From Tubiluchus corallicola (taxonomy: Eukaryota; Priapulida; Priapulimorpha; Priapulimorphida; Tubiluchidae): a DNA stretch of 64,000 nt. The stretch is taken from positions 223,694-287,693 of the forward strand of contig JAQGDQ010000164.1 of assembly GCA_030141605.1 (NCBI GenBank), read 5' to 3'. The translations under genes and the position numbers were made by a program. This document shows, piece after piece, positions 11,238-64,000 of the stretch (the first letter of the stretch is position 1; each line of letters begins with the position of its first letter). The notes under the pieces are model-generated. The model ran no database searches. It was not told the DNA's origin and saw only the letters and a list, made by a program, of their open reading frames with translations.

Positions 11238-11531
11238 AATGAGGATAATTACGTCAGTTCGACAAATTAAACCCATTTATATGACGCTAAGATAATGAAA
11301 TTTACTCCAATCTAATAAACTTTTCCATATCAATAATAATTTTTGATAATTTGTCTATTTTGTCACAGTTAATTTTGTAGTTCTAAATCTTACTAAACAC
11401 AATATCTAGTTATAAATAAACTTCGCTAGTCATCGATTAATAAGAGTTGGCATTAATTAGACTAAATTGCTGGATTATAAAAATACAATATAATTAAAAA
11501 ATATGTATTTACTTACATTGTATGTTTCCAT
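11238..11531. repeat. Dispersed AT-rich repeat, copy 2, split by a LINE insertion
   Basis: Matches the repeat at 6615-6890. It is interrupted after the word atgtttccat at 11522-11531; the same word recurs at 13007-13016 on the far side of the LINE. Confidence 0.65.
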
Positions 11532-14552: not shown

Positions 14553-16039
14553 ATATCAATAATAATTTTTGATAATTATTATGTCTATTTTGTCATTGTT
14601 AATTTTGCAGTTCTAAGTCTTACTAAACACAATATCTAGTTATAAATAAACATTGCTAGTCATCGAATTAATAAGAGTTGGCATTAATTAGACTAAATTG
14701 CAGGAAATTGCTGCATTATAAAAATACAATATAATTAAAAAATATGTATTTACTTACATTGTATGTTTCCATAGCAGGTAAGATCCTGGCACGTGTCCTA
14801 CTAAATCAACTGTTGCTGCACCTGGAAAAAGACCTTCTCCCAGAGAGCCATTGTGGCTTTAGAGCAGGCAGAGGAATGGTAGATATGATCTTTGCTGCAA
14901 GACAACTTCAAGAGAAGTGCCAAGAACAGAATGTCTGCCTCCTCACAATATTCATGGACCTCACCAAGGCTTTTGATACTGTCAGTAGGAATGGCCTCTG
15001 GAAGATCATGGAAAAATATGGATGGCCAAAAAGTTTATTGATATTGTGTGGCAGTTTCATGAAGGCATGATGGTCAGAGTCCTAGATGATGGAGATATGT
15101 CTGACGCCTTTGAATTAACACACGAGGTAAAACAGGGCTGTGTACTCGCTCCAACACTCTTCAGCATGATGTTCTCTGCCATGTTACATGATGCGTTTGA
15201 AAACACCCAGGATGGCATTAACGTAAAATACAAAACAGATGGCAGCCTCTTCAACTCCAGGCGCTTGCTAGCTACCACCAAGACCCATGTAACCACATTC
15301 AAAGACTTTCTCTTTGCTGATGACTGCACTCTCAGTGCCACCTCCCAAGAACAAATGCAAAAAGAGATGGACCACTATGCAAAGTGTTGCTTGTGCAATA
15401 AACTGTTCAGAAAATATTAATAATAACTACTGCAAGACCAGTATAAGGTATAGACTAGATGACGTTTTTGAGTGTGTCAAAAGTGATAACTTACATTCAG
15501 CCATGCACAAAAACTCGACTTCACTTAATCGCATAAACTGTGGTCCTGGCTCAAAAACAGGAGGACACAGCACTGGACAGGACACAGAACATTCATATAA
15601 ACGTAGTTTCTCTTGCCTAGTAAGTGTTCACTATGAGCTGCATGGATAACTCTGCGCATATGCAATTATTAAAGATGCACGAAAATAAATATAAATAATA
15701 AAAACCGAGGACAAATCAAGAAGATACTGCCACATAGCAGAATATTAAAAACATCTCAACAAGTATGACTAGACATGCAAACTTACCGGATCAATGATGT
15801 TCATGTTCAGTTCGTGACATCATATATCCCTTTCCACTGCTCATCTACTGACATGATCATTCCAGAATTCCTTATCCCTTACCAAGTACCAACATTCTTG
15901 CAGTTCATTTATTCTTCAGTTTACTGAAATAAAATAGACGAGTAAGTTCAATATAATTTTGCTTTGGCCGTGACCTGATCAGCAAACTTAACCACACTTT
16001 AGTTTAAGTACTTACCTGTTGTTTACCTGAAAATTTTCC
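14553..16039. repeat. Right copy of the tandem duplication, internally deleted
   Basis: It starts with the same bases as 11327 and ends where the left copy ends. It lacks the segment equivalent to about 12090-13885: at 15376-15377 the reverse transcriptase reading jumps into the repeat block. A short match (act) sits at the junction. Confidence 0.88.
14773..15376 (+). pseudogene. LINE reverse transcriptase fragment (copy B), keeps FADD but lost its 3' half
   Basis: Same 5' truncation point and same upstream flank as copy A, so it arose by duplication and not by a second insertion. Motif A reads FMDLTKAFDTV, motif B VKQGCVLAPTLF, and motif C FADD is present at about 15317. One frame shift lies near 15030. 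After motif C the reading continues about 20 codons and then runs into unrelated repeat, ending at a TAA near 15420. It cannot make a full reverse transcriptase. Confidence 0.9.
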
Positions 16040-18136: not shown

Positions 18137-18459
18137 ACTACACTAAGTAACTTTTGTCGGTACCTAAACGATGTTATTAGAACCTCTTCGGGACATTTCT
18201 TACATCTCATCAGTTTGCTCTCATGTTTTTCCTGGACATGCTTAAATGCTACACGATTCGCAATACAATTCTTTTGCGTTTCTTACGCAATTAACTATAT
18301 AGAATTCTTTACCAGAAATTCATGTTCTTCTTAACTGCTCTGCCACTTGCTTCAAAAAGGACGTAAACAGGCATGACTAGCGTCACTAGCAGGCATTAAT
18401 AGGACGTTAATGAACACATTAGTTATAAGAATAATATATTTCAGGACGTGTACGGAACA

Positions 18460-18645
18460 GTAAGAGAATTTGAAGAAATTTCCAGGAGACTTACCCAGTG
18501 GTCTCTTTCAAATATTTCAGAACTTCAACAACACAACCTTCCTGTTAGAGTTCTTCAACTGTCTATTGAATGTGTGGCATAACCAAGAAAAGTTGCTATG
18601 ACGTCCAAGCCTGTAGAGAATAAACGTTTATGACATCATTGAAAA
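18460..18645 (-). promoter_or_regulatory. Module M1 of the CRE/X-box cluster
   Basis: On the plus strand, gttgctatgacgtcc at 18592-18606 and tgacatcatt at 18631. Read on the minus strand this is a CRE-like site, then a TAGCAAC half-site, then an exon-like stretch (CAGGAAGGTTGTGTTGTTGAAG) that ends at a good donor (actggGTAAGTc, near 18488). Related to M4 and M6. Confidence 0.55.
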
Positions 18646-18853
18646 CGTCAGATAGCATCAGCCAGCCTATTTTAGATGTCTCACAGCTAAGGACCTTATC
18701 TATACAAGCCAAGCTAAAGTAAAGCAAACAGATGTTGTAAACATGAAAATTTGTACAAATATTATTAGAATAATCGTATTTAGGACTTATTTTATACTTA
18801 TCATACAGTGACCATAATTACTTTGATATTATCGCGATTAGCTCTTACTGATC

Positions 18854-19720
18854 ATGCATAACTCTCTCTCTAAGGACACAATTATAGCATTGAAAGATTT
18901 AGAATATCACAATTACACGATACTTTATCCTGAATTAATACTAACTGAAATAAGACGAGAACACTGTTACAGCTTTCTACCAAACATCCCTATAAAGTGC
19001 GTTGATGATGTGGCATGGATCATAAGAAACAAAGACGAATTAAATGCAATAAAAAACTCAATAGAATTAAATCTGAAAAATGGATCTTATACTAAACAAA
19101 AGTAAAACTAACTCACATAATTCGTCATGGTGATGAATCATGGAAACATACAAATGTCTTGGTAGTCTGCTGGTAACAGAGAAATGCATCAAGACTGAAG
19201 ATAGTGGCATTATCAGTACACTCAAAACCCACAAAAAGTTTCTGAGAACAGGGAAACATCTTTGAAAACAAAACCTTAGTTGAAACTGCACTACTGTATA
19301 ACTCTGAGCTCTGAACATTTAAAGCAATTTATAAAGCTGAAATTGACGGATTTCAACGGTGAAATTACAGAAACATTTTGTATATCAGATGGGCAAAGAA
19401 CATTTCAAATCATGACATTATATTAATAAATAAGAGAAAAACGTTGGAAAATAAAAATAAAACGGTGCTGTTTAAGATGGATTGGGCACATGCTTAGACT
19501 AACTGAAGATAGACTAGTGAAGACAGCTCTTCAGCAAGCAATAGAACCAGCCAGAAAACCTGCAGGAAGGCAAACGTTAACAAATTTAGATTTTGCACAG
19601 CAACATTAAAACACTTCAGCACAGATCAGTGAGTCCTGGAGTGAAGTGGTGAACAGAATCATGTCCCTGGATATTGAACGCATGATTCAATGGACGACGA
19701 CAATTATCATTATTATGATT
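18854..19720 (+). pseudogene. 5'-truncated degenerate LINE reverse transcriptase
   Basis: The first 83-codon frame reads into CVDDVAWIIRNKDELNAIKN, which is the YADD motif C with Tyr-Ala changed to Cys-Val. After several breaks, RCCLRWIGHMLRLTEDRL and ARKPAGRQT near 19460-19570 match the segment that follows the RT domain in many LINEs. The 3' end runs into att/tta-rich simple sequence near 19700, as expected for a LINE tail. It is distinct from the copies at 11.5 and 14.8 kb. Confidence 0.8.
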
Positions 19721-19815
19721 ATCATATCACAAAATAAACTAAAAATTATGAAAATGAACTAAGTTTGTGATGCCCACATTGCACCAGCCTTTTCATGTAC
19801 GTTTTGCATGTTTAA

Positions 19816-22200
19816 TTACATCGCTAATATTGGGTTTCCTACCTGTGCGTTAAGTTCGGTTGGTTTTACTTCAGCGGCATTGATGATATAATTCAAAAGA
19901 TTTCGGATTAAGAATAAAATTATAACAAATGTATCGACCAGTTTTTTAATCAAACTAAAATTGACAAACAAAAACAGCCAGTCTAAACACCGAAACCGAC
20001 GAGTATTTAGACGACATATTATCAAGTTTATAATAACTATTCAGCGAGGAGTGTCAGTCAAGTTATGGCGTCTATATTGGGCTAGCTTGTGTAATTAAAA
20101 AAGGAGAAATTGGACAGAAAAAAATTAAATGGAAAAAATACAGCGAAGAATTGAGAAAGCACAGTTACAGCCTAATTTCAAAGATCTAAACGCTTGACTA
20201 TTTACTACAAGAAGTTCAGTTTATCTAACCAAAGCCTGTATATTGTATAACAAAGTGATTCGCAAATTATTTCGTTCATTGATAGAAAGCAGTGCAGCAA
20301 AATCAGAATTTTCTTTTTTTATTCTGAGCAAAATCAAAATCTATTTTCTATTACCACTGTTTCTGCCCAGCAAGTTCCAATAACATGGACATGTAAAAGT
20401 GTTGATCGTTGTACATGTACCACTTGCTGGATTAATAAATAAAAAAAATTTCACCCCCCCCCCCCGCTACGAAATGAACAATCGATATTAGGTAATGGGA
20501 GCGCGGCTGTTGAGTCTGAGTTTGTTGGTTTTTGTTTGATGAACTTAGGACGGTGTGATACCATCAAACTTTGTTTGTCAAACAAAAAGTTTGTTACTTT
20601 CGCTGTTTACACGATCAAAATGGTTTGTTAAACTAAAACTAACGAACTGGTTTGACGAAAAAACTGATCGTCTAAACGGATATAGAAGTTCACAATCAAT
20701 GCTAAGAGTGTACACTGACCTTTTCTTACACAATTACTAATTAGTTTGATCTCAGTACTTTGTAATTTAAAAGACAATTTTAAAATACGCCTCAAAAAAC
20801 TTTCCATACAAAGCTATATTACTTAGCATTATACTTCCTGTTTGAAAGACGTATTTAAATAGAAAAGAAAACTCTTGGTAATAATACGCAATGTTATTTA
20901 GACTTGCTTAAATTACTTGTTCAACGATTGACCCTTGTTCAACGGCTGCCCGGTCAGCGCAGGAATTTTAATCTACACATTTTATATAGCGCTACTGATA
21001 GTGCAAGCAATCAAAGCCACCATGTTATGTACGTGATACATATTTTCAAGACCAATTTTTTTTCAACTTTACGTAAGAAATGTGTATTCTTGCCCTTACG
21101 TGGTAATGTCTCTTTATGCAGCATGCACCCTTTTTCGTGGCAATTTCTCTTTCTTGTAGCATTGCTCAAATTTTCTCAGTCTCTTGCTCGGCAATGCAGT
21201 TTGCTTGTTTTAAGGGTAGGCACATATACTGCAGTGTTACGAGCACCCACCAATTAAACATCCCTATATGCGACAAAAATGCAAAAATGTGAAATGCACT
21301 TTCCCATACCACAAGTGTAACCGAGTCGACCCACTCGTTAAGTGTTATCCCAGCATCACAGTATGTCCACTTTAAGTAGTACATCCTGGTATGCTGCTCT
21401 ATGATGTTGTTGGGTAAGAGTGCTGACACGGGATGCACATTACCTTATACTTTGATCTTGGCTTGCATTATTAACAAATGTAAACTGGTGACAATGTTTC
21501 TGACCCTGCGGTCGGAAATTGAAGTCAATAGATACAAAATGGTGACTGAAAGCCTTTTACAAAATGGTTACTGATGCCAGCCTTTTCTTTGAAAGTAAAA
21601 CTTTGTTTTATAGAATTCGCTTTGCTTGAATTCATAGGAACAGCACTTGAAAATGAAATCGCAACTTGTAACTTTTCAACCCGTGTCCTAAGGTCAGAGG
21701 TCAAACTATCTCGGCATAACTTATACCATTCAATTTATGTCAAGGAGACGTTTCGCTTAATGTACTACTAGCTAGATCGGCTGATACTGGAGGCCTTTGT
21801 CTCCTCAACCCATATTTTGTCCCCCAGAGGGTTCACAGGTTAGCCATTTCATTGTAACATATACCATTCGATTCGTCTCATCAAGACCTTTCATTTGAAA
21901 TACTACATGGTACTACTCGACACTTGGTGCATTTCTCTTCCCGACCCACATTTTTCAGATTTTGTCCCCTAGCGGAAATATTTTCTGTACGCGCACGTCT
22001 TGTTTTGCCGCAGCAAAATTTTAACTGAAACAAAAATGTAAGGCAAAGCGCGAGGGATCAGGAAAGAATGGGAAAGAGGATCAATTCTTCTGTAAGAATT
22101 TTAACTGCAGTTATACAGCACCACAGTATGCCAAAACCAGGTAAAACCAGGTGTACAGCCTATGAAGAAATATAGCCAAGTATGTGGAAGGACCGGAAAA
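19816..22200. other. Stretch without a recognised gene
   Basis: Holds a C run at about 20453-20466. It also holds a segment at 20530-20690 rich in gtttgat/atcaaac words that could fold back, and an imperfect direct duplication of about 130-150 bp at 21690-21970 (ataccattc(a/g)att and attttgtcccc recur). No gene recognised. Confidence 0.45.
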
Positions 22201-22239
22201 ACTATATTTCATTATTCATTAATAAACAGTATAAAAATA

Positions 22240-22550
22240 TTTTATGTACCTGTAAATTTTGGCTTCTGTGCGTATCTTTGCTGCTCCTCTTGGACCTCTT
22301 ATAGGCTGCCTGTGGCTGAGTTTTCCTGCGATTCCTGCCTTTCCTGGATCTGGGATCCTGGATCCTAAGCAAGAAATGAAGAATAGGTAAGAGACCAACA
22401 AAGCTTGAGGGCTTTTGTCTTTTACTTTTTTGGATGTTTGAGTTTAACAGCAGAACCATCCTCGATAATTTAGCTAATTATGTTTCTCATGCAACTAAGA
22501 AGCTGTTGCTACGAGCTACAAGTGTTTATGATGTCACAGAAAATGACCCC
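22240..22550 (-). promoter_or_regulatory. Module M2 of the CRE/X-box cluster with two exon-like segments
   Basis: Plus-strand gttgcta at 22504 and tgatgtcaca at 22529. On the minus strand this is followed by an exon-like segment reading II-DGSAVKL near 22450. Next come an acceptor (ttcatttcttgcttag, near 22365), a segment starting gatccagg, and a donor-like aatttacagGTACAT near 22250. The same order occurs in M5. Confidence 0.55.
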
Positions 22551-22834
22551 ATATGCGAAATCGGTAATCACGTATTTTAATCTAGACATTAAAATTATCT
22601 CATACAAATCGATTCGGGTCATACAAATTGAAACGGGTCCAAAAACGGTGAAACAACAGATTTCGGAAAATGTAAGATCGAAAGTTCTGGTGTTTTGCTT
22701 AATACTTGCGTTAAAGCTACAGGTCTATAGTCATTAACTGTAGTAACTGGGTTTCTCTTTGGCACAGGAATAATGATAGACTGCTTAAACTGTTTAGGGA
22801 ATTTACAAATACTTAAAGACCAGGTCCTGTTGTC

Positions 22835-23110
22835 TTAGCTCTTCGGGCTGAAAATTGGATTGCTATTCCCCAACACGGCTGTATGAAACTGTAATTTTTG
22901 GTAATGTGCTGCTTCCGGCTTTTTCTGTACTGTAATCCGCAAGAAATGAAAATATGTAAGACTGCAAATTAGAAAAGGCTCAGAGCTTTCTCTCTTATGT
23001 TTCGGGGGTTTGAGTAGAACAGTCGAACCATCAACAACACGCAGTTTGCTAATCAAAGCCAGCCTTGCACGGCAACTAAGAAGCTGTTGCTACATCCTTA
23101 TCTACTGCAA
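22835..23110 (-). promoter_or_regulatory. Module M3 of the CRE/X-box cluster
   Basis: gttgctac at 23085 (plus) with only a weak CRE remnant (gacgtgaac) beyond it. The minus reading ISKLRVVDGSTVLLKPP after it is related to the readings in M2 and M5. An acceptor-like ...cggattacag and a segment ending aaattacag follow near 22890. Confidence 0.5.
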
Positions 23111-23239
23111 GAAAGACGTGAACAGATATAACTAACATCATTAATAAGTAAAAATATGACATCAACAGGCAAATTACACGTGCGAAAATCAACCGTTTAT
23201 GGATATGTATGGCACAGGAAGAGAATTTGAAGAAATTTC

Positions 23240-23400
23240 CACAACACTTACCTAGTCATTCCTTTTAACTTCAGAACTTCAGCCAAAGCAACCTTCCTGT
23301 GTGGACTCCTTCATCGTCTGCTGAATGTGTGTAGTGTAACCAAGAAACTACTGCTATGACTTCAAACGATGAGTAAACGTTTCTGACGTCATTGAAACGT
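23240..23400 (-). promoter_or_regulatory. Module M4 of the CRE/X-box cluster
   Basis: Plus-strand ctgctatgacttc near 23350 and a perfect CRE, TGACGTCA, at 23383-23390. The minus-strand exon-like segment shares acacacatt and caggaaggttg with M1 and ends at a strong donor, actagGTAAGTg, near 23252. Confidence 0.55.
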
Positions 23401-24424
23401 CACATCTCAAGCCTGGAAGAAATGTAAGTACCTAGGCAGCTCTGCCAGATACAGAAGAAGGAAAAAACCTGACACTAGCAACTCTCCCAAGGCTTAGATC
23501 TTCAATAACAAGAATATTAGCACAGGATCAATCTAAGACATTTTCATAATTGTCAATGATCATTAAATTAGTCGTTAATAACGAACCAGTTCTTATATAT
23601 CAGTAACAAAATACGGTTTAAGTGAGGCAACTATCACTTAGGCAGAGGAGAGAAGGTGAGATGACCAGAAGTATGAATATATTTTTGTATCATATTATAA
23701 TTACTTGCAGGTTTCACCATAATTCACAAATAGTTTGATATTCACTTACTGTAATTTGCCTACCACAACTCAACAGTCCCCAAAAACCCTATAATTTGTT
23801 TGTCAAAAAATGTGTAAGATGATAATTGCAATCATTATCATATTGCCTGCAAGATGCAAATGCAACAGCTCTCTTTAAATTATCATTAATCTGCAGTTTT
23901 TAAATGACCAAATCATAAAGCTACCTGCCTGTATGTAACAGCCGCCTGTCGACACACTGATGAAAAAAATCACAAAATATTCAAACATAAAATTACAAAA
24001 CAGAGACAACGTCACTCGTCGTTGTTTCAATCCGTTGAGGATGTCGTGAAGACAACAATATTACTTCAAAAATTTCTTAAAGACAAAATTTCTTAAACAA
24101 AATCTTAAAGACAATTATTGCGCCCATGTACCCATGGCATGCTAGCTTTTTTGCGGCACACATTTGAATGTTCTCTTCTAAAAACTCCATGATGATGAAA
24201 GTGAACCAGAACATTCCTGTTCAAGTCGCATTGCATTTCACTTCACACTAATGTTCATCCTGCAGTTCATTACGTTACATTTCATTACATTACGCTACGT
24301 TCGTTACGCTGTGTTACGCTACATTATATTATAACTAAACGTGAACTTGTGTCACAATTCTAATTGTACTGCAGTTCAGTTATTCGCTCCACTGTCAGTA
24401 AACTGGACATAGCCAAAAACTACT

Positions 24425-24612
24425 ATAGACCTAGACTTACCATTCCAGTACCATTTCGTTTACGGTACTGTTCATGTTGCAGCTCATAAACTACTATAGC
24501 CATAGACTTACCATCCAGTACCATTTCGTTTACGGTACTGTTCATGTTGCATAGACTTACCATTCCAGTACTATTTCGTTTACGGTACTGTTCATGTTGC
24601 AGCTCATAAACT
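24425..24612. repeat. Three direct repeats each carrying a short hairpin
   Basis: The word cagtacc...ggtactg (7-bp stem, 11-base loop) occurs at 24446-24470, 24516-24540 and 24566-24590, with flanking catagacttacc and gttcatgttgc. The last interval is shorter than the first because the intervening agctcataaac part is missing. Confidence 0.9.
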
Positions 24613-24822
24613 TATCATCTTGTAAAATATTCAGTTTATGATTTTTTTCATGAACTCCGGCTGTACCAGTGAAAAATTACCTAATTTTTGAACGGACCTG
24701 TAGAACTGGCTACATTGAAGGAACATAAGCAGCTATGCCAACAGAATGATATCACGTGTTGAAGGATCAGTGTGGCGTATCAAAGAAATGATATCAGACG
24801 TCAATTAAAAAACAACGTAAAT

Positions 24823-24866
24823 AATGACGATGATGATGATGGTGATGACGATGATGATGATCATGT

Positions 24867-24897
<31 letters not shown>

Positions 24898-24935
24898 ATA
24901 ATGATGATGATGACGATGATGATGATGATAATAAT
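24823..24935. repeat. gat/gct trinucleotide microsatellite
   Basis: Mostly gat units with a short ctg/gct island in the middle. Confidence 0.95.
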
Positions 24936-25999
24936 CTTCATTTAAAGTCGGCTTTTTGGATAAACAATAAACACAAGCTCCAATAAGCTCCGATTGTAAA
25001 TAGCAGTCTACAACTACATAACAGAGACTATTATTACCCCACTTTTACCCTAAATGCCATATGCCAGGCAAAGCAACAGCAGGTACCATTTTTAAAGTTT
25101 TTGGTGCGACCCGATGTCATAGAGCAGTTGTTCTACACAAAAATTAAATACTACAAGTAAATAAGCTATCACGAATCGATTGAGTTATTTTAACTCACAA
25201 GGAACGTAAGGAACCAAGGCAATTTTCGTTTGTGCGCAAAACTATCGTATTTCTTCTCTTTTTTTTTGGTTGAACTATTTTGGAGGTAAGCGTAATGATA
25301 GGGAACTACTTGTGAAGAGCAGCACTGTGGAATACCTTATCCAAAGAAATAAAGACTAGATGGTAACTGTCTGTAAAAGGTCCTCTCTCAAATGCCTTTT
25401 GAAACTGTTAACTAATGAAGCACTGATGGTTGATGATGTAAGATGATTCCAATGTTGAACTACGCGATGCCTAAAGAAATGTGATCTGATATTGGTTCTA
25501 GCTGGTTGCACAAATAACGAAGCTTTAAACAATTATTTAATTAATTTTTTTAGTTAACTAAATTCTTTTAGTTAATTTGACTTCTGCTTCAACACAGTTG
25601 GTTTGACTGTTTGTTTGGTTGTTTGTTTTTGTCTGTTACAGCAGTAAGCCATTTACTCAAAAACTATCTAGCAGATTTCCAGAAACTTTGTGAGGAAAGG
25701 CGGGTATAGAGCACAAAAATTGGAATCGTTTCGCCAGTTCTCCTTTCGCAAAACTTGACCGAACACCGCATATAAAAAAAACACTCGAAAATCACTTCAC
25801 GAGTAACCTTTACTCATTAGTGTATAGCCTTATAGACTTGATACGCATATTATTGTCAGTCTATTAATTACTACCGCCAAAATTAATGATGAAAAGGGCA
25901 GATAAACACTATGTGGAACATTCGTCCATTACTCGATAGAAATCCAATCTGCTTCTTACTGAGCGCATTCTAGTTTTCTTATAAAATCAATTCCATCAA

Positions 26000-26125
26000 A
26001 ATAACACGTGCCTTTTTTACCTACTTTTCCATTTGTGCCGTTTTTTCTATACCATTTTTACCTGCGCCATTTTTCTGTGCCATTTTACCGTGTCATTTTT
26101 CCCTGTACCATTTTTACCGCGCACC
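26000..26125. repeat. Degenerate ~17-bp tandem repeat
   Basis: The core ccattttt(a)cc recurs about seven times with variable spacers. It gives the artefactual Lys/Thr/Gly reading of a minus frame that ends at 26047. Confidence 0.75.
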
Positions 26126-26419
26126 CTATAGTCTACATACGCCCATTTTAGAGCTGCTATGCGATTTAGATAGGAAGAAAGACCAATACTTGATAAATAT
26201 GACGAAGTATAGGTGTAAGGATTCTCACTGAAATTCACGCTTGGCTCTTCCTCCATCCATATGGAATGTCACTGCGTTTTTGAACATTCATATGTAGTTT
26301 TCACGGATATAAGGTATAAGTTTCGAACAAATTTAAAAAGAACCACCAACACAATACCTGAACAAAGCAAAGCCATATTTTTCATGCCAGTTAAACAAGC
26401 AAAATAATATTATAATCTG

Positions 26420-26775
26420 TGTACCTGTAAGTCTTGCGTGCCCTGGGCTGCTTGTCGGGTTTGCGTAGGCTCCCTATTTGCACAACTTACCTTTACTGCA
26501 TCTCCTCCTAATAATGCTGCCTGCGTCCTAGCGATTTCTTGCATTTCCTGTCTTTTCCTGGCTCTTGACCTGGATCCTAAGTAAGAAATGAAAACTAACT
26601 AAGCCCACTTAGTTTGTAGCAAAGCTTGAGGCCTTTTTTCTTATTGTGGGTTTGAGTATAACAGCAGAACCACCAACAACAGTTTTACAAATGAAGATGC
26701 CTTACTGTCCAGAAACTTATAATGGGTTGCTATGTTGCTATGACCTGAGAAAGAGTGTTTATGATGTCACCAAGA
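26420..26775 (-). promoter_or_regulatory. Module M5 of the CRE/X-box cluster with exon-like segments
   Basis: Plus-strand gttgctatgttgctatgacc at 26736-26755 and tgatgtcacc near 26762. On the minus strand the reading VVGGSAVILKP matches M2 and M3. An acceptor, ttcatttcttacttag, precedes a segment starting gatccagg that contains MQEIARTQAALLGGDAVK and ends at a donor (aaagGTAAGTtg, near 26491). A further acttacagGTACACAG lies near 26423. Confidence 0.55.
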
Positions 26776-27404
26776 ATGTCCTCACTCCCAACACGCCAAA
26801 TTTGCAATGAAGAAGAAGTTTGGACAAAGTTGTCCCGTGCCTAACGGTGTAGTGATATAATTATTATCATATTATTATTCAGATTCAATTATTTAAGCTG
26901 AGCATACACTCCGTAGTCTTAAGAAGATTACCAGCTATTATGCCTTCCGTAAATCACCAATAAGATTTAATTTATATAATAAATTTAATAAAAATAATAA
27001 CAACACTTCTCTGTAGGAAGAACTGTAGGATTAATAAATACTTAAGAGAAAAGATGTAGGAACTATGAAACTTTAAAGTTTATTTTAAAAATTTAATTTC
27101 GCCTTCCCCAGTGTTGTGATTTGAGAATCTCTCCGCCCAGAGCCAAGAGGATGCTACAAGAAACGGTTTAGGGGTATATAAAAAAGAATAGTTTTTTAAA
27201 TAATTGAATACCTGCTTATTCTGAATCTAGTTGAATTGAATTGAATTCTGTCTTCGTACTTCGGAAGAAATGATTAAACTTGTACATCAGCGTTGCTCCA
27301 TTCTCTTCTAGTCCTCTCTTCCAAATTCGCTAGAAACGGTAAATGCAAAATAGTTCAACTAAATAGATAATACAGAATCGATCAGAAAAATCATTCCTGC
27401 AAAA

Positions 27405-27790
27405 CTAGCTCGTTACCTTACATCCTAACAGAGGCTTTAGCCGAAGAAACCATCCTGTTGACCTGTTTTTTCCTTTCAAGGAGCTGTAAATTTCCTGCCA
27501 AGAACCTATGGGATGAATAGAAACCGGTCTACACGATGGTGTGGGTCTCTGAAAGAGATGAAGGATTGCGAGTTGATTGAGGCAACGTTTTAGCATTACG
27601 GTTCATGGTTTTGCAAGAGAATTTAAAGAAATTTGCCTCTAAAGTACTTGCTTTTACTTGAGAATCCACCCGGAATAGAAGCAATCTACGAGGACCTCTT
27701 TGAGCAATCTGCTTAATGTGTGTAATGGCCAAGAAACTGTTGCTATGACGTCCAAATCTAATGACGAGCTAACATTTGTGACATCAGTGA
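27405..27790 (-). promoter_or_regulatory. Module M6 of the CRE/X-box cluster with exon-like segments
   Basis: Plus-strand gttgctatgacgtcc at 27739-27753 and tgacatcagt near 27779. The minus exon-like segment starts ATGGCCATTACACAC (27732) and reads THIKQIAQRGPRRLLLF. A second segment follows an acceptor, tctctttcag (near 27558), reads RPTPSCRPVSIHPIGSWQ and ends GTAAGgtaacg near 27415. Related to M1 and M4 over acacacatt(a/c)agcaga. Confidence 0.5.
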
Positions 27791-27799
27791 GGACGTCTA

Positions 27800-29570
27800 C
27801 TGTCGTTGACCACAGATATTGAAGACATCTATAGTCATAGATATCTCACAGACATACCAGATAAGTCTCTGGTATTGAATGCTTTTAATTCTGCTATTGG
27901 ACGAGGTAAAAACCGAGTGGTCACGATAACAACTTAGCATCCAAAGTGAAGCAATGCTAAAAACAGTTTGTAAATGGATAGAGGACAGATACAATACTAA
28001 CTGTGCAGTGTCATTCACCATGTTGATCTCATTGAGGGACGATGTATTTGCATCTGAACCTCCCCCCTCCCTCTTGTTGTTTCTCTTTCTGCCATCCTTT
28101 AATTATCTGCAGTGCTTTGACTAATGACTATCAACAATCGTAATCATTAAAATGACGCAGTATTTAAGGTATCAATTTTGTTTTTTTTTTATTTTATTTT
28201 GGCACAATTTCGTCGGTACAATTTAAAGTTGTTTTAGGATAAAATTCCTTTCTGTCAGTAATTTGCACTGAATCATTTGCTGCATATAATTACTTTAAAT
28301 TCAATTGATTGTCATAGTATTTGAAATATATTTTAATAAATAATAGAAATTATAAAAATGTGAAAACACCGAGGCTTTGAGAACCACGCAGATTTGTTAA
28401 TATCTTGGGATCAACATTTTTCCAATAAATTAAGCTTCCTCGGGAATTTTTTACGGTTCTTTTGTGGCAGAACCGGATCCTTGCTCATTTAAAAGGTAAT
28501 TCTGTGAGATGAAACACTGAACTGGTAAAGTTACATACGGATGCATTTACATCTTCTCTACACAACAAGAAATGAACGAAATGGTTCGGAATCAGAGTAA
28601 AAGTAACTTGAGTGTGAGCCCAAGAGTGATTTTCCTAAGCAGTCTCGCAACAAATCAGTTTTAGGCAACTTTGGTGTTGCTTAACTTCGGTAACGAATCA
28701 CACGCCGTGATTACTCACTATTGTGCATATTCAAATATCAACACGATTCCCTACCAAATCGTTCTGACGTTACAAGTCGAGATCTACTTTCTTGCCTTTA
28801 CGAGTTGACCATTTTTTCATTATATGATCCCTATTAATCAATAGTTAAAATAAACTACTTTTTATTGCGCATTATCTTTTCTGGGAAAAAACATGTTCTG
28901 TGAAATTCCTGTGCTTTTTGTCGGAGAGGAAAAATTTTCTGGGAAACGAGTCTATACCACTGCTGCCACAATTGATCCTATTTAAACATCGTTACTTTTA
29001 TTATCATAATAATAATATAGGTATAATTACATCATGGAGATATACTGTAATTTTTATCTGGGCCTGATAATTGTAATAATAGTTAACATATGTTAATATG
29101 TTAATTATATCAATAAATACAGTAAAAACTCCACTGTTAGTAGGAACATTTCTGTTACAAGGTCCTGCAGTCTTACTGTAGTGCCTACTGCAGTATCATG
29201 TGCCAACTGTGATCATGCTAACACACCGCAGATAGTTATCGAACCTGCTGATATATGTAGCAATTTTCACTCTGAAGTAACTGCTGGTTGATGCTGAAGT
29301 AGTCAAAGGTTTTTTGACAGCATGTGACAAGGTGGATTCTATTTTATATTTGCAATGATGGAAATTATCACGGTCTTAGTTAATGATACTTACAAATATC
29401 TGTCACAAATACATGTACAGCATAAATAGATTAATATGTTATACAATAATATAATATTTTCGTCTGACTACATTACTGCTAAATGCGTAATGTCGCTTTC
29501 ATTTAATTCACATTACTTGGGGAAGACCTTTCCATTTTCTGAAAGGTTTCCCTACTCGCAAATTACTTCT
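27800..29570. other. Stretch without a recognised gene
   Basis: AT-rich with T runs near 28180. Nothing coding or repetitive was recognised by eye. Confidence 0.4.
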
Positions 29571-29610
29571 TCGAAATGAACAATACAAGAGCGTTGCTGT
29601 TCAAGTACTT

Positions 29611-29822
29611 ACCCTTGCAGTTCCTTCAGAATCTTGGGTTCTTACTGGGGTCCGTACCCTTGCAGTTCCTTCAGAATCTTAGGTTCTTACTGGGGTACTT
29701 ACCCTTGCAGTTCCTTCAGAATCTTGGGTTCTTACTGGGGTACTTACCCTTGCAGTTCCTTCAGAATCTTGGGTTCTTACCGGGGTCCGTACCCTTGCAG
29801 AATCTCTAAGATCTTGGGTCGT
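29611..29822 (-). repeat. 45-bp tandem repeat, four units plus a partial unit
   Basis: Units start at 29611, 29656, 29701, 29746 and 29791, exactly 45 bp apart. On the minus strand they stay in one frame as a 15-residue repeat (VSTPVRTQDSEGTAR). Units carry a donor-like word at the unit boundary (aaggGTAAGTA or the variant GTACGG). An acceptor-like ttatttcag lies just upstream on the minus strand near 29858. It belongs to module M7. Confidence 0.9.
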
Positions 29823-30045
29823 TAACAGTGTCTGTGATATCTTGCCTTCCTGAAATAAGGAAGAACTCGAAAACACATAAACCTGTTGGTCTCGAAAGTT
29901 TAACGATTTTAGTCGTAATTTCTCAGGAGTTTAAATAAAAATTAACAAACCTCCGTCAGTAGATTTGCTGAGCAACTCCGGAGTTCTTGCCCTCTTGTGG
30001 TAACTAAGAAGCTGTTGCTAAGAAGTGTTTATGGCGTCACAGGAA
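29822..30045 (-). promoter_or_regulatory. Module M7 of the CRE/X-box cluster
   Basis: Plus-strand aagaagctgttgcta at 30007-30021 and tggcgtcaca near 30032, a one-base CRE variant. The minus strand then leads through an exon-like stretch to the 45-bp repeat. The same aactaagaagctgttgcta word occurs in M2 and M3. Confidence 0.5.
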
Positions 30046-30159
30046 AATGTCCCTAAACCGGGCTACACGTCATTTCCGTATAAGATGACATCCATCTGTA
30101 TAAATTTTGAATAAACGATTAACAAAACGCTACTATAGGGTCTATTTAAATTATACAAT

Positions 30160-30450
30160 AATTATTGTTTTTTGTACAGTTCGGAATCGTGCAAGCTATA
30201 ATCCAGCATTCATTAGCAGGTCAAACGCAGATTTTATGCTTATGGCGAGACTAGAACCTCGCTTATTATCAAGGCAAAGCCACTAAGATGAGCCACTGAA
30301 CTGGCAGAGGTGGCTTAATCACATTCAGATGTAAGTACGACTATCCTCTACAAGGTAAACAGCCAGAATCAGCATGAACCTGCTTTGAGGGAGAACAAAG
30401 TTTCTCATTCATCCATTAGCTGACCAGCCTCTGCGCCATTCTTAACTTCA
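30160..30450. repeat. Dispersed repeat, partner at 47820-48110
   Basis: Shares attcatt(a/g)gcagg, a gggact/gagact-aga block, aggtaaacaaccagaatca (one base different) and cattagctgaccag/cactgaccag with the partner copy. A degraded tRNA-like word (ctagaacctcgc) suggests a SINE origin. Confidence 0.6.
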
Positions 30451-30799
30451 ATAAGAGACATACACAAGTGCAGTGTCATTGTCAAAAGTGGGTGTTGGTG
30501 ATAATAGCTGCACGTCTGCAGACGATACTGAGACCCAAAAATCATTGCGCAAATTGCCCATTGATATATTAGTTTTTATCATGCATATCCACGCTTAGGG
30601 CACAAGGATGACAGAAATAAAAAATAAAAACAAAATCCCTAGCTTAGGCGTATTCACTACGTTCTTTTTCTGTCAATGGACGAGGCAGGCCTTCAGAATT
30701 CTACGTTAGTTGCTCCCTGGTGAAGCCATAATTGAACTATCTGGTACGCCTTTAACTGCTATTTCTGGCAACACCAGCAGTTAATATCTTGGATTCCGC

Positions 30800-30890
30800 A
30801 AGAAAGCTCTGAAAACCTTTTGCACGCCAACTGAGATTCGAACCTACGCCTTCTTCTTTCACCGTCCAATTCGCTGTGAAGAAAGTGTTT
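30800..30890 (-). repeat. tRNA-like SINE fragment
   Basis: Read on the minus strand, the RNA polymerase III B-box GGTTCGAATCTC is present near 30830. No full cloverleaf was found, so this is not called a tRNA gene. Confidence 0.5.
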
Positions 30891-31129
30891 ATATAAGCTC
30901 CTGGACGGAAAGAATGATCATTACACTTTTCTGTAAATTCGGCACTAGTTTTGCTTTCAACCTACATATTTATCTAGAACTTATAACGGTATATTTAAGT
31001 AGTAATTAGCGTTTCTGTAGAGTGTAGAGTAACAAAATGTTATATACTTAATATATTACTTTAATAAAATAACCAATAAGGCTGATATTTTAATGAATAT
31101 CAATTTTTTTAAATAATAATAATTTCGTT

Positions 31130-31345
31130 TAGGCATGGTCAAGAGATTATACCTTGAGTACCTCAACGCTTATTTTCAAGACGGTCCTGATTATTATTAC
31201 CTGCACGTTCCATCAATAAACCTTGATCGTAGTACCGGGGGTACTATTTCCCAATTCTTTGGTATGACTCAGTCGGGAGTTGAACCAGAGACCTCCCTGG
31301 CTAGCGAGCACAACTGGATGACCGGATTCTGATGCTCTCAAAGCC
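31130..31345 (-). repeat. tRNA-derived SINE, minus strand
   Basis: The minus strand reads ...gctagccagggaggtctctGGTTCAACTCCcgactgagtcatacc, with a perfect B-box near 31270. A tail runs left to about 31130. The gagtcatac word after the tRNA-like part is shared with the SINE at 53.5 kb. Confidence 0.7.
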
Positions 31346-31436
31346 GACAATTCAGAAAAACCCAAGTGACCTTCTCATTAGGCTTGCTATGTGGGTGAGG
31401 GTGACTGGCTGCCTCACATGTTAAGCATGTTAATTA

Positions 31437-32360
31437 TTATTGTTGAGCTGGTTCCATGACGAATGTACTACCCACCCCTTTAGGTAATATGGGATTCGGA
31501 AGGAAGCTCACAACACGTATACTCCAGAAATTAGCCCCTTCAAACGTGATTAAATTTCTTACAAATTTAAACGCATTGGAATTGGTGGTTGCCTCAATTA
31601 GATCTTCTGACTGTTTAGAATTTTTGCAATTAATTAAATTATAATGTTTAATTAAAATTCGCCCGTAATCCCGACTGTTAGGCGAAGTAATATGAGAACA
31701 TGACACGTGTCAGCGGAGCAGCCGATAAAGAGAGTACAGTAGTAAAAACGCAAAAATGTATCGCTGGTAAAAAATGATTGCACTTGTAGCCAGGTTATTG
31801 TCAAATTTAATGTGAAAAAATAAATACTGTACTTATTTACTTACTTAATGGCGGTCACTTATTTACAGTGATTTTATGCGTTTGTATTTGATTGTCGCTG
31901 GATTTCCGTTGAAGAATGCAGTCAATCAAATTTTTGTATTGTGACGAACAAGCTCTTTTGAGGTTTCCTCTGAATTGCATGAAAGACGAATCAGTTGAGA
32001 AATGAACGGCGAATGCAGTGAATGCTCTAGGAAAAACAGCTAAAAACAACTATACTAACGGGACCCGGAGTCCAACCAAAGCGGCTAGCCTCCCCAAGGT
32101 AAAACTTATGATTTCTTAATCTTAAGTGTAATACCTTTCATTACAAAAGCCAATATAAAAAGAATGCTCTCCCAACAGCCGGAGTCTGCGTCAATAGTTC
32201 GCGTTTGCCTCTGGATGTTAAAATCAAGAAAACACGAAGCCTTAACCGAGTTTTGTGGTCCTCTTTTCAATAAGGACAAAAAGCGCTCCTTGGTCTTCAC
32301 TTCAGAGTTTCTAAGTAATTTCTCGTGTTTTAAATTTAAGGTTTTATAATACATCTATCG
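31437..32360. other. Stretch with unrecognised open frames
   Basis: Minus frames at 31437-31706, 31855-32049 and 32106-32354 (64-89 codons) have somewhat higher GC than the surroundings and no stop, but no family motif. They lie downstream, on the same strand, of the first-exon candidate at 32440. No splice chain could be confirmed. Confidence 0.3.
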
Positions 32361-32439
32361 TTCTCCAAGCTATTTATCATATTTTTTTCTAAATAAATAA
32401 CAGAGAAATTCTATTATGATATTATTAAATTCTGTGTAC

Positions 32440-32556
32440 CTGTCTTCCTCGGACTCTATGCGTGCACCCTCGGACAAACAAAAGTTCCGCTAAATCTTCT
32501 TTTACTTGAAGAACAGCATCCTTCTCTTTAGATTTGTTAGGTAAAACGATAAACAT
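32440..32556 (-). CDS. Candidate first coding exon of module M8
   Basis: From ATG at 32556 the minus strand reads 39 codons without a stop (MFIVLPNKSKEKDAVLQVKE, then LAELLFVRG) to a donor, gacagGTACACAG, at 32440/32439, phase 0. The promoter-like CRE lies about 45 bp upstream. The donor context matches those of M2 and M5 (tacagGTACA). No family recognised. Downstream exons were not identified, so the product is unknown. It could be a noncoding first exon that is open by chance. Confidence 0.4.
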
Positions 32557-32559
32557 CAA

Positions 32560-32612
32560 AGAGACGCCGTTGTCACCCAGGTAAAGAGTGAGTATTTATG
32601 ACGTCATTACAT
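32560..32612 (-). promoter_or_regulatory. Module M8 of the CRE/X-box cluster
   Basis: A perfect TGACGTCA at 32599-32606, followed on the minus strand by TAAATACTC and then gggtgacaacgg, the equivalent of the TAGCAAC half-site in the other modules. It sits just upstream of the candidate exon at 32440-32556. Confidence 0.55.
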
Positions 32613-32619
32613 GTGTACG

Positions 32620-34114
32620 TAGTCGTCACTTAGTGAAGAGATCTGGTACGTCATCGATCGATTCGTCAGATATCATAATTATAATCGTTTAAATAATATA
32701 TTATTATTATAATAATAATACGCAACTGGATTAAACGAATTAAAATAAATTATGTTTCACCAGCTTGAACAGGGTTGTTAAATACTTAAACACTATAGCT
32801 TTAAACACTATCATTATGTTTCGATATAAATTGCTCTTTTCTTCAAATGCGAGGTGAAAGTCTCGTCAAAATTACAGAATTACAAAGTTACAAGGTTTTT
32901 GGTAGATATTGAATTAAGGTAATTCAAAAAGCACGATAATATTTTTTAATTGAGCAAATTTAGAAAACAAAAAAATAATTAGCATACGAAAGGATCGCTA
33001 TAAGCAATACGATAACATAATTACGATAAAAAAGTATTACATGGACGATTAGACGAAAACAGCAGAATTTTTATTGTCATCCCTTCCCACTTTCTTAGTA
33101 GTAACCTAATAACTGTTTTTGTTAAAACATTGTGTTTGATATGATGCTTATTACACTACTATTTTGCAATCAGGTTACCTGAAAAATATAAGTTTTTTAA
33201 TTTCATGTACATATTAATGCTATTGATAAATGTGTTTAATTTTGACCTACGTATGAATTCTTTTAATGGAAATTGCAGGCTTTCTTATAATATGACTTTA
33301 AGTTCTAATTGATTTAATTATTCTGTCTGCTAAGCTGCCGTTCTACACACAAGTTTGCTTAATTCCACTTCTTTCAACATCTTTAAAGCAAAAACTAAGT
33401 CTTTCGGAATGTTCAGCTTATTCTAAATTTTTTTAAAAATGTTTTAAAGTTTCAGCAGTAAAACTGTGATAAGCACCTCGTGTAATTAGTAAAATTAATT
33501 TAAAGTCCCGTCCATGTCATGTTTTGGCTCGCTCATTTTCAATGAAAAAGGCTGTCATCTGTTTAGAATGCAGTTAATAAACCCTTATCCTCCCATGTAG
33601 TTGAGCAATGTTTTTTGCAGGTGCAGCTACAATTATCAACTACATGTATAAACTATTCAAAGCGTTAAATTAGAGATTATTAATACAATTTTTTTTGTTT
33701 TTTGATGATCTCGTTGTCATAAACTTTTGCAATAAAAAACTGTTACTGATGATAATGTAATAGCCTTAAATAACCCAACAAAGTAACAGAATAGTTATCT
33801 TAACAAACTATACTGAACTCCCTAAAGTCTAAACTAAATAACCCATCTGGAGTTAAGGATGATTATAAATTTCTTTTACAGTTTTAAAAAAGGCATTTCA
33901 TGTGTGTACATTGTGTGGTAATTCCAATATTTTTTGTGTATTAAAGTATAGCTGTAATGAGCTGCATTTGGATCTAGAAGCTTCCCATTTGTATACATGC
34001 TTATTGTTCAAATTACTAAATATCCAAACACGAACATCAACTTGTAACTCGAAAAAGTCAGTCATGTCCACACAATGTCATTAAGCTGACTAAATTTTCG
34101 CCTGTTACGGACAG
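32620..34114. other. AT-rich stretch, nothing recognised
   Basis: Long A/T-rich sequence with no exon-like or repeated structure seen before the FGD-like exon. Confidence 0.4.
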
Positions 34115-36841: not shown

Positions 36842-39245
36842 TTATGGCAAACTAGTGGCATTTGTAGCCACATCATAAGATGGCGGTGGAGGAAGCGATT
36901 TACCACTGAACGTAAATCCTTGATCTGTTGTCTCTTTGACATCTGAACCAGGCGCTGATGCTCCGGCACTTAAACCTTGATGTGGTCCACCGGGCGGATA
37001 CCCAGGATTCATCTGCATACCATAATTGCCGTATCTTGTGTTGTAGGTATTGTATCCACCAAGGCCAAAGCTTGGCCCTCCGCTGAAGGTATTGTGACTG
37101 ACTACAGTTGTACCGTGGTTGTATCCGTTTCGGTAGACCGAGGAGACTGGCCCATTATGGGCGTAACCCCTGTTTGTAATTACTGTGACTCGCCTGTTGG
37201 ATTTTCTGTAGAACAGGAGGATTAATCCAATGATTAAAAGGATAGCTCCAACACTATACAGAAGAACTTCTCCCAAGTAGTAGTACACAATAGCACTGAA
37301 ATAAACAAGTGAAAGCAAAAGTAAAAACCAGCTGTGCGATAGCGTTAACAAATGACTAATTAATAACAAGTAGCACAATGAAGAAAAAACACGATGATTC
37401 AGTACAGCACTCTGGACTATCTTCAAATCAAAAAGAAGTGGCACAAGCACAACATTTTTTGGATTTTGTAATAAACACGTTCACTGCAAACCACAGAAAA
37501 TATCACACAGGAGAGAACACAATCGGGGAAAAACACAAAGCTTGCTAGAGTTTTTATCCGCGCTGAACTCTTTTGCTGGTGTTTTCTTGTGATTGTGTTC
37601 CTTAACGCGTGTGGGTATTTTCTGCAGTGTTCAGTGTGCTTTTCCAAAAAATATTATTTAATGATTGCTTGTGCTTTTTTTGTTTGATACAAAATTATGC
37701 AGAAACAAGCCAGAGTAATTGTGTCGATTCTTATCATTAAGAGTTATCCCTATGTTATTAAAACCGGATCGTGTTCAGTTGTTGTGCAATTTAGTTTTGG
37801 GCAAGTTTAGTATTCATACTGGGCCCAGATTGTAGACCTAAAGTGTTTGTGTGTAGGAAGTAGAGGAAATGCAAAACACGCCCTCGCATTAACTTGTAAT
37901 AATAAAATTATCCGCGTAATAAAGTAACTCGTAAAAATGAGCTAAATAGTGAAGTTTATTCATTTTATTGCCTCATTAGAATATGAATACTTGTAGTAAA
38001 AAGTTGAGTTCTTTCTCAAATTACATTTAACACATTGACAACTTTTAGTAACAGTTCTTTTTTCACTTCACATTATTACTAGCTAGAAGAAAGAAAGGCA
38101 ATTCGTCAATTTATCACTGCCTTCTATTCCTTAAAACGTAGTAACAGTTCTGTTTTCACTTCACATTATTACTAGCTAGAAGAAAGAAAGGCAATTCGTC
38201 AATTTATCACTGCCTTCTATTCCTTAAAACGTAGTAACAGTTCTTTTTTCACTTCACATTATTACTAGCTAGAAGAAAGAAAGGCAATTCGTCAATTTAT
38301 CACTGCCTTCTATTCCTTAAAACGATCCGTATTCTCCTGCCTACTACTACTACGCTCATTTCCATTTTTTGTAATTGCCAATCGATGGCAGCACAAGCTT
38401 ATACTTGTATATTATGGCTCCAGCTTCAATTGGCTGTTAATAAGATCGACTGGGTATTATAAATTAACGTTAAACACAGTATAACACGAGCTATTTATAA
38501 TTATTTTTAAGTACATGTACTGATGTGAAGATGTTGTTTTAACTCTACTAATGTTAAAACATTAAGCTGTTTTTAATAGTACGAAAATCACAGAGTCATA
38601 ACATTCAAACACTCGTAACGTCTCTTTATTTTTTAAGGAAAATGCATCTTCAAAACGCCGTCACGGACTTAAAATAAAAAAAAACAACTTATAGTCACCT
38701 ATAGTATACTGTGGTCAATAATAGTTACGTAGTGTTACTATATTACACTCAAGTAATATTTTGTTACATGATTTAACACCCAACTGCATTACTTAACAGT
38801 TATTTATCAGTATAATGTTATTTCTGCTGCACCGTTTCTCTTGGATTCACCATGTAGCAACTTAAGTACTATACATTTTTAATTTTTCCTCATTTTTGTG
38901 CAGATTTACTGTTCTAAGCTTTCGGAACTTTGACCCTCGAGTCAACATCGAGGTTGGATTAGGCGCAAAAGGTGGTGCAAAGATGACAAGTGTCTACTAC
39001 TCAGATACATTAAAATATTTTTAAATATTAAAATATAAAAACAATCTTAGTTTTTAGTAGGTAACCAACCTGAAATTTAAAACAACCATAGCACTGGTAA
39101 ATAGAGCAGACATGATGATGCCTCCAACAAATGACAAAGAGCCAAGTACCAAGAGTACAATAGCAATCATCCGTTTCTTATGCTCTTTTGTCTTCAGTGC
39201 AGCTTCATTACTCTGCGGAAGAGGTGCTGTTTCCACGGGAACCAT
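36842..39245 (-). CDS. Two-pass membrane protein with C-terminal PPxY motif (two exons)
   Basis: Coding exon 1 is 39245-39070 (ATG at 39245-39243, good context after gctgtc). It is spliced at ttcagGTTGG to exon 2, 37295-36842, after acceptor gtttatttcag; stop at 36842-36844. The joined reading is 630 bp, 209 residues. Residues 26-48 (MIAIVLLVLGSLSFVGG...) and about 69-88 (VLLYSVGAILLIIGLILLFY) are membrane segments. The short loop between them carries a sequon, N57-F-S, created across the splice junction. The tail (about 95-170) is rich in Gly, Tyr and Asn, and ends with a PPxY motif (PPSY, 196-199), the usual ligand of WW-domain ubiquitin ligases of the NEDD4 type. An acceptor (tttcag at 39261) in front of the ATG implies an upstream noncoding exon. 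Family name not recognised. Confidence 0.85.
38048..38328. repeat. 93-bp tandem repeat, three nearly identical units
   Basis: acagttc recurs at 38051, 38144 and 38237, exactly 93 bp apart. The units differ by very few bases. It lies inside the intron of the two-pass membrane protein gene. Confidence 0.95.
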
Positions 39246-39479: not shown

Positions 39480-39600
39480 AGTTGTAATATAGCCTGGATT
39501 TGAACCAGGGACTTTCTGCCTACAGAGCAGGCGCCTTGAACAAACAAACCACCATATTCCTCAGTGATCAACGCTCTCCATGGTTCACCTCTTATAACTG
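39480..39600 (-). repeat. tRNA-derived SINE, minus strand
   Basis: The minus strand has a T-arm, CCTGG-TTCAAAT-CCAGG, with perfect B-box near 39500, and an anticodon-arm-like gcct...aggc. The acceptor stem is not convincing, so it is a SINE rather than a tRNA gene. Confidence 0.65.
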
Positions 39601-63832: not shown

Positions 63833-64000
63833 GTAAGTGTGCTCTTTTGTTTACACGCATTTATTAATTAAATATTTGTTTAGCTGATTTCTCACTTAGA
63901 ACTGTATTGCTCTGTTGTGATTTTATTCCTTACAGGAGATAAACGTCTTACGTATAGCGAAAGATATCACATGTTGATATTTGAACTCGTCAAACGTTTT

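Follow-up and report, generated by a model that had tools for sequence, protein, structure and literature searches.

What does a bank of eight promoter-like modules, all on the minus strand and lying between positions 18460 and 32612, do in the genome of the priapulid Tubiluchus corallicola? We addressed this question in a 64,000-nucleotide stretch of DNA (the window), which is part of contig C2115 (contigs are designated by C and a number), and in the 343.5-Mb assembly, which was scanned with patterns drawn from it. An earlier reading of the letters alone (the sequence-only reading) had noticed words resembling the cyclic AMP response element (CRE), TGAYGTCA, close to the RFX X-box half-site TAGCAAC and to exon-like segments. 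It had proposed a tandem gene family with fast-changing products, alternative first exons of one gene or a noncoding RNA cluster, with repeat-borne promoters as the main alternative. A second feature, a tandem array with a predicted ribozyme of the hepatitis delta virus (HDV) type, lies beyond the coordinates of the modules and was no part of that finding. The explanation that we favour, with modest confidence, is a minus-strand noncoding RNA gene with alternative RNA polymerase II promoters and noncoding first exons, whose body includes the ribozyme array.

Minus-strand TAGCAAC words were found to end within the cluster at 18598, 22511, 23092, 26732, 26740, 27745 and 30020, and two more end outside it, at 48116 and 60236. 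Six of the eight modules carry the word, in keeping with the claim that most do; its place is taken by TAGCAGT in the module at 23.35 kb and by TGACAAC in that at 32.6 kb. The CRE is exact in the modules at 18.6, 23.35, 27.75 and 32.6 kb and has one mismatch in those at 22.5 and 26.75 kb (TGACATCA) and at 30.0 kb (TGACGCCA). In the 23.1-kb module, an exact CRE (23157-23164) stands 72 bp from TAGCAAC, and a one-off version, TGATGTTA, lies closer. CRE start and X half-site start are 19-41 bp apart in the other seven modules, so that the spacing of 20-35 bp announced earlier held roughly for these seven and failed for the eighth. The sequence GTTGCTATGACGTC occurs in the window at 18592 and 27739 only. 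With a pair defined as a CRE with at most one mismatch and a TAGCAAC lying 8-60 bp after it, the minus strand held seven pair sites between 18.6 and 30.0 kb, which came from six modules because one has a doubled TAGCAAC, and the plus strand held one (57611). As 60 Markov-1 sequences gave a mean of 0.37 and a maximum of 2 with both strands pooled, the existence and position of the minus-strand modules were confirmed. Their likeness to CRE plus X-box promoters stood for the CRE octamer but not for the full 14-bp X-box palindrome, which is absent from the modules; the half-sites RGYAAC and GTTRC are all that these contain, and they are everted. Indeed, the aligned promoters and first exons of paralogues read TGAYGTCATAAAC, a variable gap and TAGCAACAG..TTCTTRGTTRC, that is, everted RFX half-sites.

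The modules fall into type A (18.6, 23.35 and 27.75 kb), the group B/C/E (22.5 and 26.75, 30.0, and 23.1 kb) and the more diverged type D (32.6 kb), all minus-strand. A1 (18495-18660) comprises a CRE (TGATGTCATAAAC), a second CRE half with TAGCAAC and an exon-like segment running to GG/GTAAGT (the slash marks the donor junction), with paralogues on C1744, C147 and C1525. A2 (23250-23410) has TGACGTCAGAAACG, TAGCAGTAGTTTCTTGGTTAC and the donor AG/GTAAGT, and A3 (27650-27800) has TGATGTCACAAATG and GACGTCATAGCAACAGTTTCTTGG. B1 (22200-22560) shows TGACATCATAAACAC and TAGCAACAGCTTCTTAGTTGC ahead of an exon-like segment; B2 (26400-26790) has TGACATCATAAACAC, the doubled TAGCAAC and a donor, AAAG/GTAAGT, present in 6/6 aligned copies. 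E (22900-23165) also contains TAGCAACAGCTTCTTAGTTGC, and its exon is akin to those of B and of C147. In C (29780-30060), TGACGCCATAAACAC and TAGCAACAGCTTCTTAGTTACC are followed by an exon that runs at its end into a tandem repeat of 45 bp (29605-29800, 4.4 copies); because the repeat copies hold a GTAAG- or GTACG-type donor, this exon may end at several sites. D (32437-32625) has TGACGTCATAAATA, its TGACAAC and the donor GACAG/GTACAC in 6/6 cluster copies. Donor-like GTAAG/GTACAC sites were mostly retained among module copies, which bears out the good donors reported earlier, except in A3, where the donor is weak by eye.

The modules are a small family and not a dispersed repeat. Whole-module DNA searches of the genome returned at least 7 to at least 11 matches per module, and the 20-base core TAGCAACAGNTTCTTRGYTR, with at most one mismatch, returned at least 27, against 0 for the reversed pattern (all genome counts for modules, core and CRE-X patterns are lower bounds). 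Repeat-borne promoters were therefore rejected, as these numbers are not the hundreds of copies of a dispersed repeat. Near copies of the cluster lie on C1797, C77, C1934 and C61, with aligned blocks mostly 87-98% alike, and C1744 holds a diverged cluster, 72-80% alike over the longer blocks, with a single module of every type from A to D, ordered as in the window. The window cluster holds additional A and B copies, ~4.2-4.8 kb apart. The core matches fall on cluster copies and on a few distant paralogues, bringing in C47, C1902, C1713, C354 and C2295, and two CRE-X patterns add C147, C1525 and C1820 (at least 13 matches against 0 in the control, and at least 18 against 2). The distant paralogues retain the CRE, TAGCAAC and a TTCTTGG-like core. 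In all, 15 contigs bear modules, and these reduce to about nine groups if near copies are counted as one. A set of X-type modules, three on C1713 and one each on C354 and C2295, shares a CAGACGTCTTAAARAAG start, and a 50-bp tandem repeat has arisen at one of them. We also considered a wider, genome-wide class of CRE plus TAGCAAC promoters and make no claim for one: 17 of 18 strict matches belonged by eye to the family, C2110 did not, and the control gave 2.

Judging from the alignments, the exon-like segments look noncoding. Comparison of the window with C1744 over these segments of A1, B2, C and D showed 17 indels, of which 16 break the frame (2/2 in A1, 6/6 in B2, 5/5 in C and 3/4 in D). The near copies of modules B2, C and D contain ATG frames 15 or more codons long that are lost in C1744 (the C1934 copy was omitted for B2). 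A tandem family with fast-changing products is thus a poor fit, whereas the two other options of the sequence-only reading, alternative promoters or first exons and a noncoding RNA cluster, fit. A basic frame at 22.2-22.5 kb had pointed to genes for small basic sperm proteins, which the frame test likewise disfavoured. No conserved reading frame of the kind expected from a protein-coding tandem family was found in the modules, save one of 20-21 amino acids on the minus strand at 18309-18374, just past the A1 donor. It is retained in 5/5 A1 copies, C1934 showing an in-frame loss of 3 bases, and is missing from the A2 and A3 rows of the alignment. Compared with C1744 it differs by four replacement and one synonymous codon changes, within a stretch that is highly identical. 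Most likely this frame reflects chance plus local constraint, a tiny peptide being the alternative.

Sense-strand comparison of the window with C1744 revealed the second common feature, the tandem array downstream of the modules. In the window it covers positions 1-4045 on the minus strand and runs on to the left; seven units measured 769-805 bp from ribozyme to ribozyme, and no long open reading frame (ORF) was seen in these units. A run of 100 N (3901-4000) sits inside the array, and contigs C67, C379 and C1545 likewise end within theirs. A 785-base unit gave at least 58 genome matches on at least 18 contigs, full-length on C67, C1545, C379, C1797 and C1744 and almost so on C77, while the tandem arrays of C1525 and C1713 have units of ~1.6 kb and 2.7-3 kb. 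Where the remainder of the unit no longer aligns, two pieces persist: a hairpin, HP (ATCATGG...CCATGAT), on C1525, C1820, C1538 and C1056, and, on C1713, a piece of 50 bases that has a partner of 23 bases. In one pair of units from the window and C1744, the two HPs were 43/45 (95.6%) and 45/45 (100%) identical and the ribozyme halves 46/49 (93.9%) and 20/23 (87.0%), against 525/640 (82.0%) for the rest of the unit.

HP folds into a 19-pair stem with two arms of ~22 nucleotides and occurs twice per unit in the main array group. The window has nine full copies, all minus-strand, one at 2258-2334 and the others at 38-112, 701-777, 840-914, 1487-1562, 1625-1699, 2397-2471, 3061-3136 and 3199-3273; two further copies are broken by the N gap. 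A 35-place pattern allowing up to three mismatches matched 117 times in the genome and 0 times in the control, the contig assignments of HP being those among the 100 matches listed. Covariation in HP is weak, with 80 of 500 shuffles reaching its score, and loop and stem are conserved to about the same degree.

The 50-base piece is, in the fold that we modelled, the 5' half of a predicted HDV-like ribozyme, and its downstream partner is the 3' half. Minus-strand copies stand in the window at 280-482, with the predicted cut immediately 5' of the G at 482, and at 1867-2039, 2639-2841 and 3441-3640. The predicted elements are P1 (GGAACUC/GAGUUCU), P2 (GUGCAGC/GCUGCAC), P3 (ACC/GGU), L3 (UCCUCGU), P1.1 (CC/GG), P4 (AUGAUUUGG/CCAAAUCAU) and J4/2 (GCGAAGA). 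The P4 loop has ~100-130 bases in the window, and there is a compact form, which takes up 104 aligned bases on C1713 and 87 on C2237. A strict descriptor returned 25 rows, that is 14 sites, in 296,647 bases, every one in or beside the arrays, against 1 row in 889,941 Markov bases. The ribozyme core pattern, with at most three mismatches, had 69 genome matches (49 exact) and none in the control, on 11 contigs: C67, C77, C379, C1545, C1713, C1744, C1797, C1934, C2115, C2237 and C205.

Covariation supports this fold. In 16 aligned copies (14 distinct), 97.9% of 389 cells were paired, compared with 24-40% when the strands were slid, and 0 of 500 shuffles matched either the covariation score or the paired-cell share. 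This alignment took three of the four C1713 copies, only the 18.8-kb copy of C2237, and none from C67, C77, C379, C1545, C1797, C1934 and C205. P1, which is 7 bp long and starts at the cleavage-site G, keeps all seven pairs in 13 of 14 distinct rows, the copy C1744_b breaking one. P3 abuts P1 with a 7-nucleotide L3 and has 97.6% of cells paired, with a change on both sides from A-U to G-C. P2 (96.9%) and P4 (97.6%) show one both-sided change each, G-C/A-U and A-U/C-G, and close the nested double pseudoknot; the two-pair pseudoknot P1.1 is 100% paired and, being invariant, gives no covariation signal. The catalytic C of J4/2 (C-N-R-A) reads CGAA, CAAA or CTAA at 14/14 descriptor sites, as the descriptor demands, and is lost in C1744_b. 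Decay is seen in the second C1744 copy, which is without its 3' half, and in three of the omitted C2237 copies, which have lost the P1 5' strand. Within 10601-18600 of C2237 lies a different repeat array with several pieces that resemble the ribozyme, P1 being decayed in some of them, and one ribozyme and two HPs at the far end of the array on C1934 (~284.7-285.2 kb) stand on the opposite strand. Hammerheads were not among the cmscan matches to E 5 in positions 1-3950 of the window and eight other loci. We rejected a splice-donor reading of the core (CGTG/GTGAGT), because the donor is lost in C1713 and C1744 (CGTGGCGAGT) while the P3 pair persists there except in the copy C1713_b, and we set aside Rfam matches under cut-off: isrG and mir-6132 (CTG-rich stretch, L012), RAGATH-30 (other strand of the array), SNORD75, U12 and SCARNA7.

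Modules and arrays are co-linear. Nine of the 15 module-bearing contigs have an array (C2115, C1797, C77, C1934, C1744, C1525, C1820, C1713 and C205), and in 9/9 the array follows the modules on their own strand, ~1.6-19 kb downstream; seven of the nine arrays have a ribozyme and two have the hairpin only. The array of C205 was found through the ribozyme pattern alone and an upstream module was forecast before looking; the 6.8 kb read upstream held one sense-strand CRE (TGACGTCATAAAC) followed by TAGCGACGGTTTCATAGTTA, 1.6 kb from the array. C61, which starts inside the cluster, is counted neither with nor without an array. Conversely, the arrays of C67, C379 and C1545 reach the upstream contig end, which falls inside them, so that modules would not be visible there, and C1056, C596, C2339, C4 and C1732 hold short or decayed array pieces and no module (C1538 was left out of this check).

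According to the explanation that we favour, the eight modules would act as alternative RNA polymerase II promoters, each with a CRE, an ATAAA-like element and RFX half-sites, followed by noncoding first exons, in a gene that would be one member of the small family on the 15 module-bearing contigs. Transcription would begin at any one promoter and cross the array, spliced or not, and the predicted ribozymes would cut the transcript 5' of each GGAACUC. The products would be unit-length RNAs of ~0.8 kb that carry 5'-OH and cyclic-phosphate termini, and ligation could turn them into circles. Germline expression is a guess of ours, from the likeness of the CRE and RFX half-sites to spermatid promoters. 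This guess is weakened because the gene sets that RFX2 and CREM control in the mouse are largely distinct (PMC4498915).

Several observations weigh against such a gene. The C1525 and C1820 arrays have HP and no recognised ribozyme. Five module-bearing contigs, C147, C47, C1902, C354 and C2295, have neither a ribozyme match nor a unit match, nor HP among the listed matches, and on C147 neither HP nor ribozyme was found in ~9 kb downstream of the modules. C2237, whose array begins at most 2.9 kb from the contig start, has no CRE-X pair in 8 kb of sequence upstream of the ribozyme at 18.8 kb. In the window itself, 14.5 kb with LINE (long interspersed nuclear element) fragments separate the nearest module from the array, a gap that transcription would have to cross. 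Since the loci share descent by duplication, the co-linear cases are not independent, and the nine linked contigs amount to about six separate cases at most. As regards the ribozyme, shuffling equalled its count of doubly changed pairs in 52 of 500 cases and its count of pair types in 490 of 500. The Rfam family RF02682 (HDV-F-prausnitzii) does align at the ribozyme position, with cmscan covering P1, P3 and the GCUAAG stretch, but at 18.4-26.2 bits (E 0.4-4), below the gathering cut-off of 44 bits, so that the HDV-like assignment rests on structure and not on Rfam. Lastly, the X half-site of C205 is degenerate, TAGCGACGGTTTCATAGTTA having three mismatches to the module core; this and the retained A1 frame make the noncoding gene slightly less likely, and the frame makes a peptide family slightly more so. 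The interval between modules and array also contains duplicated frames that look by eye like LINE reverse transcriptase (11494-12498 and 14735-15417) and a 408-bp piece repeated 1,487 bp apart (14065 and 15552).

One alternative, which we hold to be rather unlikely, is that modules and array are separate things travelling together in segmental duplications, the modules giving short independent noncoding transcripts beside a ribozyme satellite that is not transcribed from them. The gaps of 1.6-19 kb, the mostly 87-98% likeness of cluster copies and the 5 of 15 module contigs without a recognised array are what this would predict, but order and strand are constant in 9/9 contigs, even where only the promoter core and HP or ribozyme align. 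An unlikely reading, although compatible with the noncoding gene, makes HP a small-RNA precursor and the array mainly a small-RNA cluster in which the ribozyme aids processing. The stem with its two arms, the 117 matches against none in the control and the retention of HP where no ribozyme is recognised (C1525 and C1820) suit it, whereas the weak covariation, a loop as conserved as the stem, which is unusual for microRNAs, and the lack of any Rfam microRNA match to E 5 in window positions 1-3950 do not. It is less probable still that the locus is a large mobile element, non-LTR (lacking long terminal repeats), Penelope- or Terminon-like, with the ribozyme at its 5' end as in R2 and RTE LINEs. 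HDV-like ribozymes are known in R2, RTE, L1Tc-type and other LINEs (PMC7761336, PMC3774820, PMC4035085), and LINE fragments are present in the region. Yet the 69 ribozyme matches are confined to 11 contigs, and in the stretches read for ORFs, which take in a minority of these matches, no reverse-transcriptase ORF was seen directly after the ribozyme, with no long ORF in the window units and none of at least 100 amino acids in 12.6 kb around the C2237 copy. Finally, first exons of a fast-evolving peptide family such as small testis proteins, a reading prompted by the basic open frame at 22205-22477 (minus), by the A1 frame and by CRE plus RFX half-sites reminiscent of testis promoters, are very improbable given the broken and lost frames, and given that the A1 frame lies past the donor with 4 of its 5 changed codons being replacements.

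Other features of the window were noted beside this locus. A minus-strand frame of 212 amino acids with a transmembrane-like stretch (36845-37480) is 100% identical in DNA on C2115, C1797 and C1711, in contrast to the adjacent module cluster, which is ~3.5% different between C2115 and C1797. A transfer RNA-like gene at 39485-39558 (minus) scored 39.9 bits with Rfam RF00005 and was not called by ARAGORN. A leucine-rich repeat (LRR) exon at 63537-63833 (Pfam LRR_8, E 2.9e-13) resembles LRIG-type receptors. A 32-bp tandem repeat (24.7 copies, 98% matches) occupies 7810-8598.

How does the proposed noncoding gene compare with known systems? The layout of a promoter, small exons and then a long tandem array is that of tandem-repeat noncoding RNA genes such as hsr-omega and the host genes of C19MC and SNORD116, which are not known to contain a ribozyme. 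With RFX2/CREM-type spermatid promoters the modules share a CRE and RFX half-sites close to where transcription presumably begins, but these are half-sites only, everted (AGCAAC N8-10 GTTRC), and not the 14-bp X-box. With the HDV-like ribozymes of R2, RTE, L1Tc/ingi, CPEB3 and RF02682, the predicted fold shares the P1-P1.1-P2-P3-P4 pseudoknot, a 7-nucleotide L3 and the C-N-A-A of J4/2. It differs in its Rfam scores, which are under the cut-off, and in standing in tandem units beside a promoter cluster and not at a LINE 5' end or in a single intron. Genomic HDV-like ribozymes are found mainly at LINE 5' ends and in a few introns, and tandem repeats that carry hammerhead ribozymes are known.

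Metazoan non-LTR retrozymes and newt satellite 2 are likewise noncoding tandem repeats with a ribozyme in each unit, as are the window array and, in being tandem, those of C1713 and C1525. Newt satellite 2 has a small nuclear RNA-type promoter in every repeat. The ribozyme is a hammerhead there and HDV-like here, and units are 150-450 bp there and ~0.8 kb here. Retrozyme copy numbers run into the thousands (about 5,000 in mussel), against 11 contigs here, and hammerhead tandem repeats in many animals yield linear and circular self-cleaved monomers (PMC7229834). The modules would form a conserved promoter region upstream of the array, whereas plant and metazoan retrozymes seem promoterless and reliant on read-through transcription according to a review (PMC7761336); an LTR promoter is reported for Nicotiana benthamiana (PMC9695139). 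A limited literature search, mostly of titles and abstract openings, returned no description of HDV-like ribozymes in tandem arrays under conserved promoters. In its fullest form, our proposal is a new kind of animal noncoding gene, in which a bank of CRE/RFX promoters would feed an HDV-like array and one regulated transcript would cut itself into many almost identical RNAs of 0.8 kb that become circles, probably in the germ line; we put this forward tentatively and with more doubt than conviction. If true, conserved promoters ahead of HDV-like arrays would amount to a dedicated gene for a self-cut, possibly circular RNA. Because promoters, ribozyme and hairpin persist while spacers decay, the family makes it possible to ask directly if arrays of this kind are genes under selection or selfish repeats.

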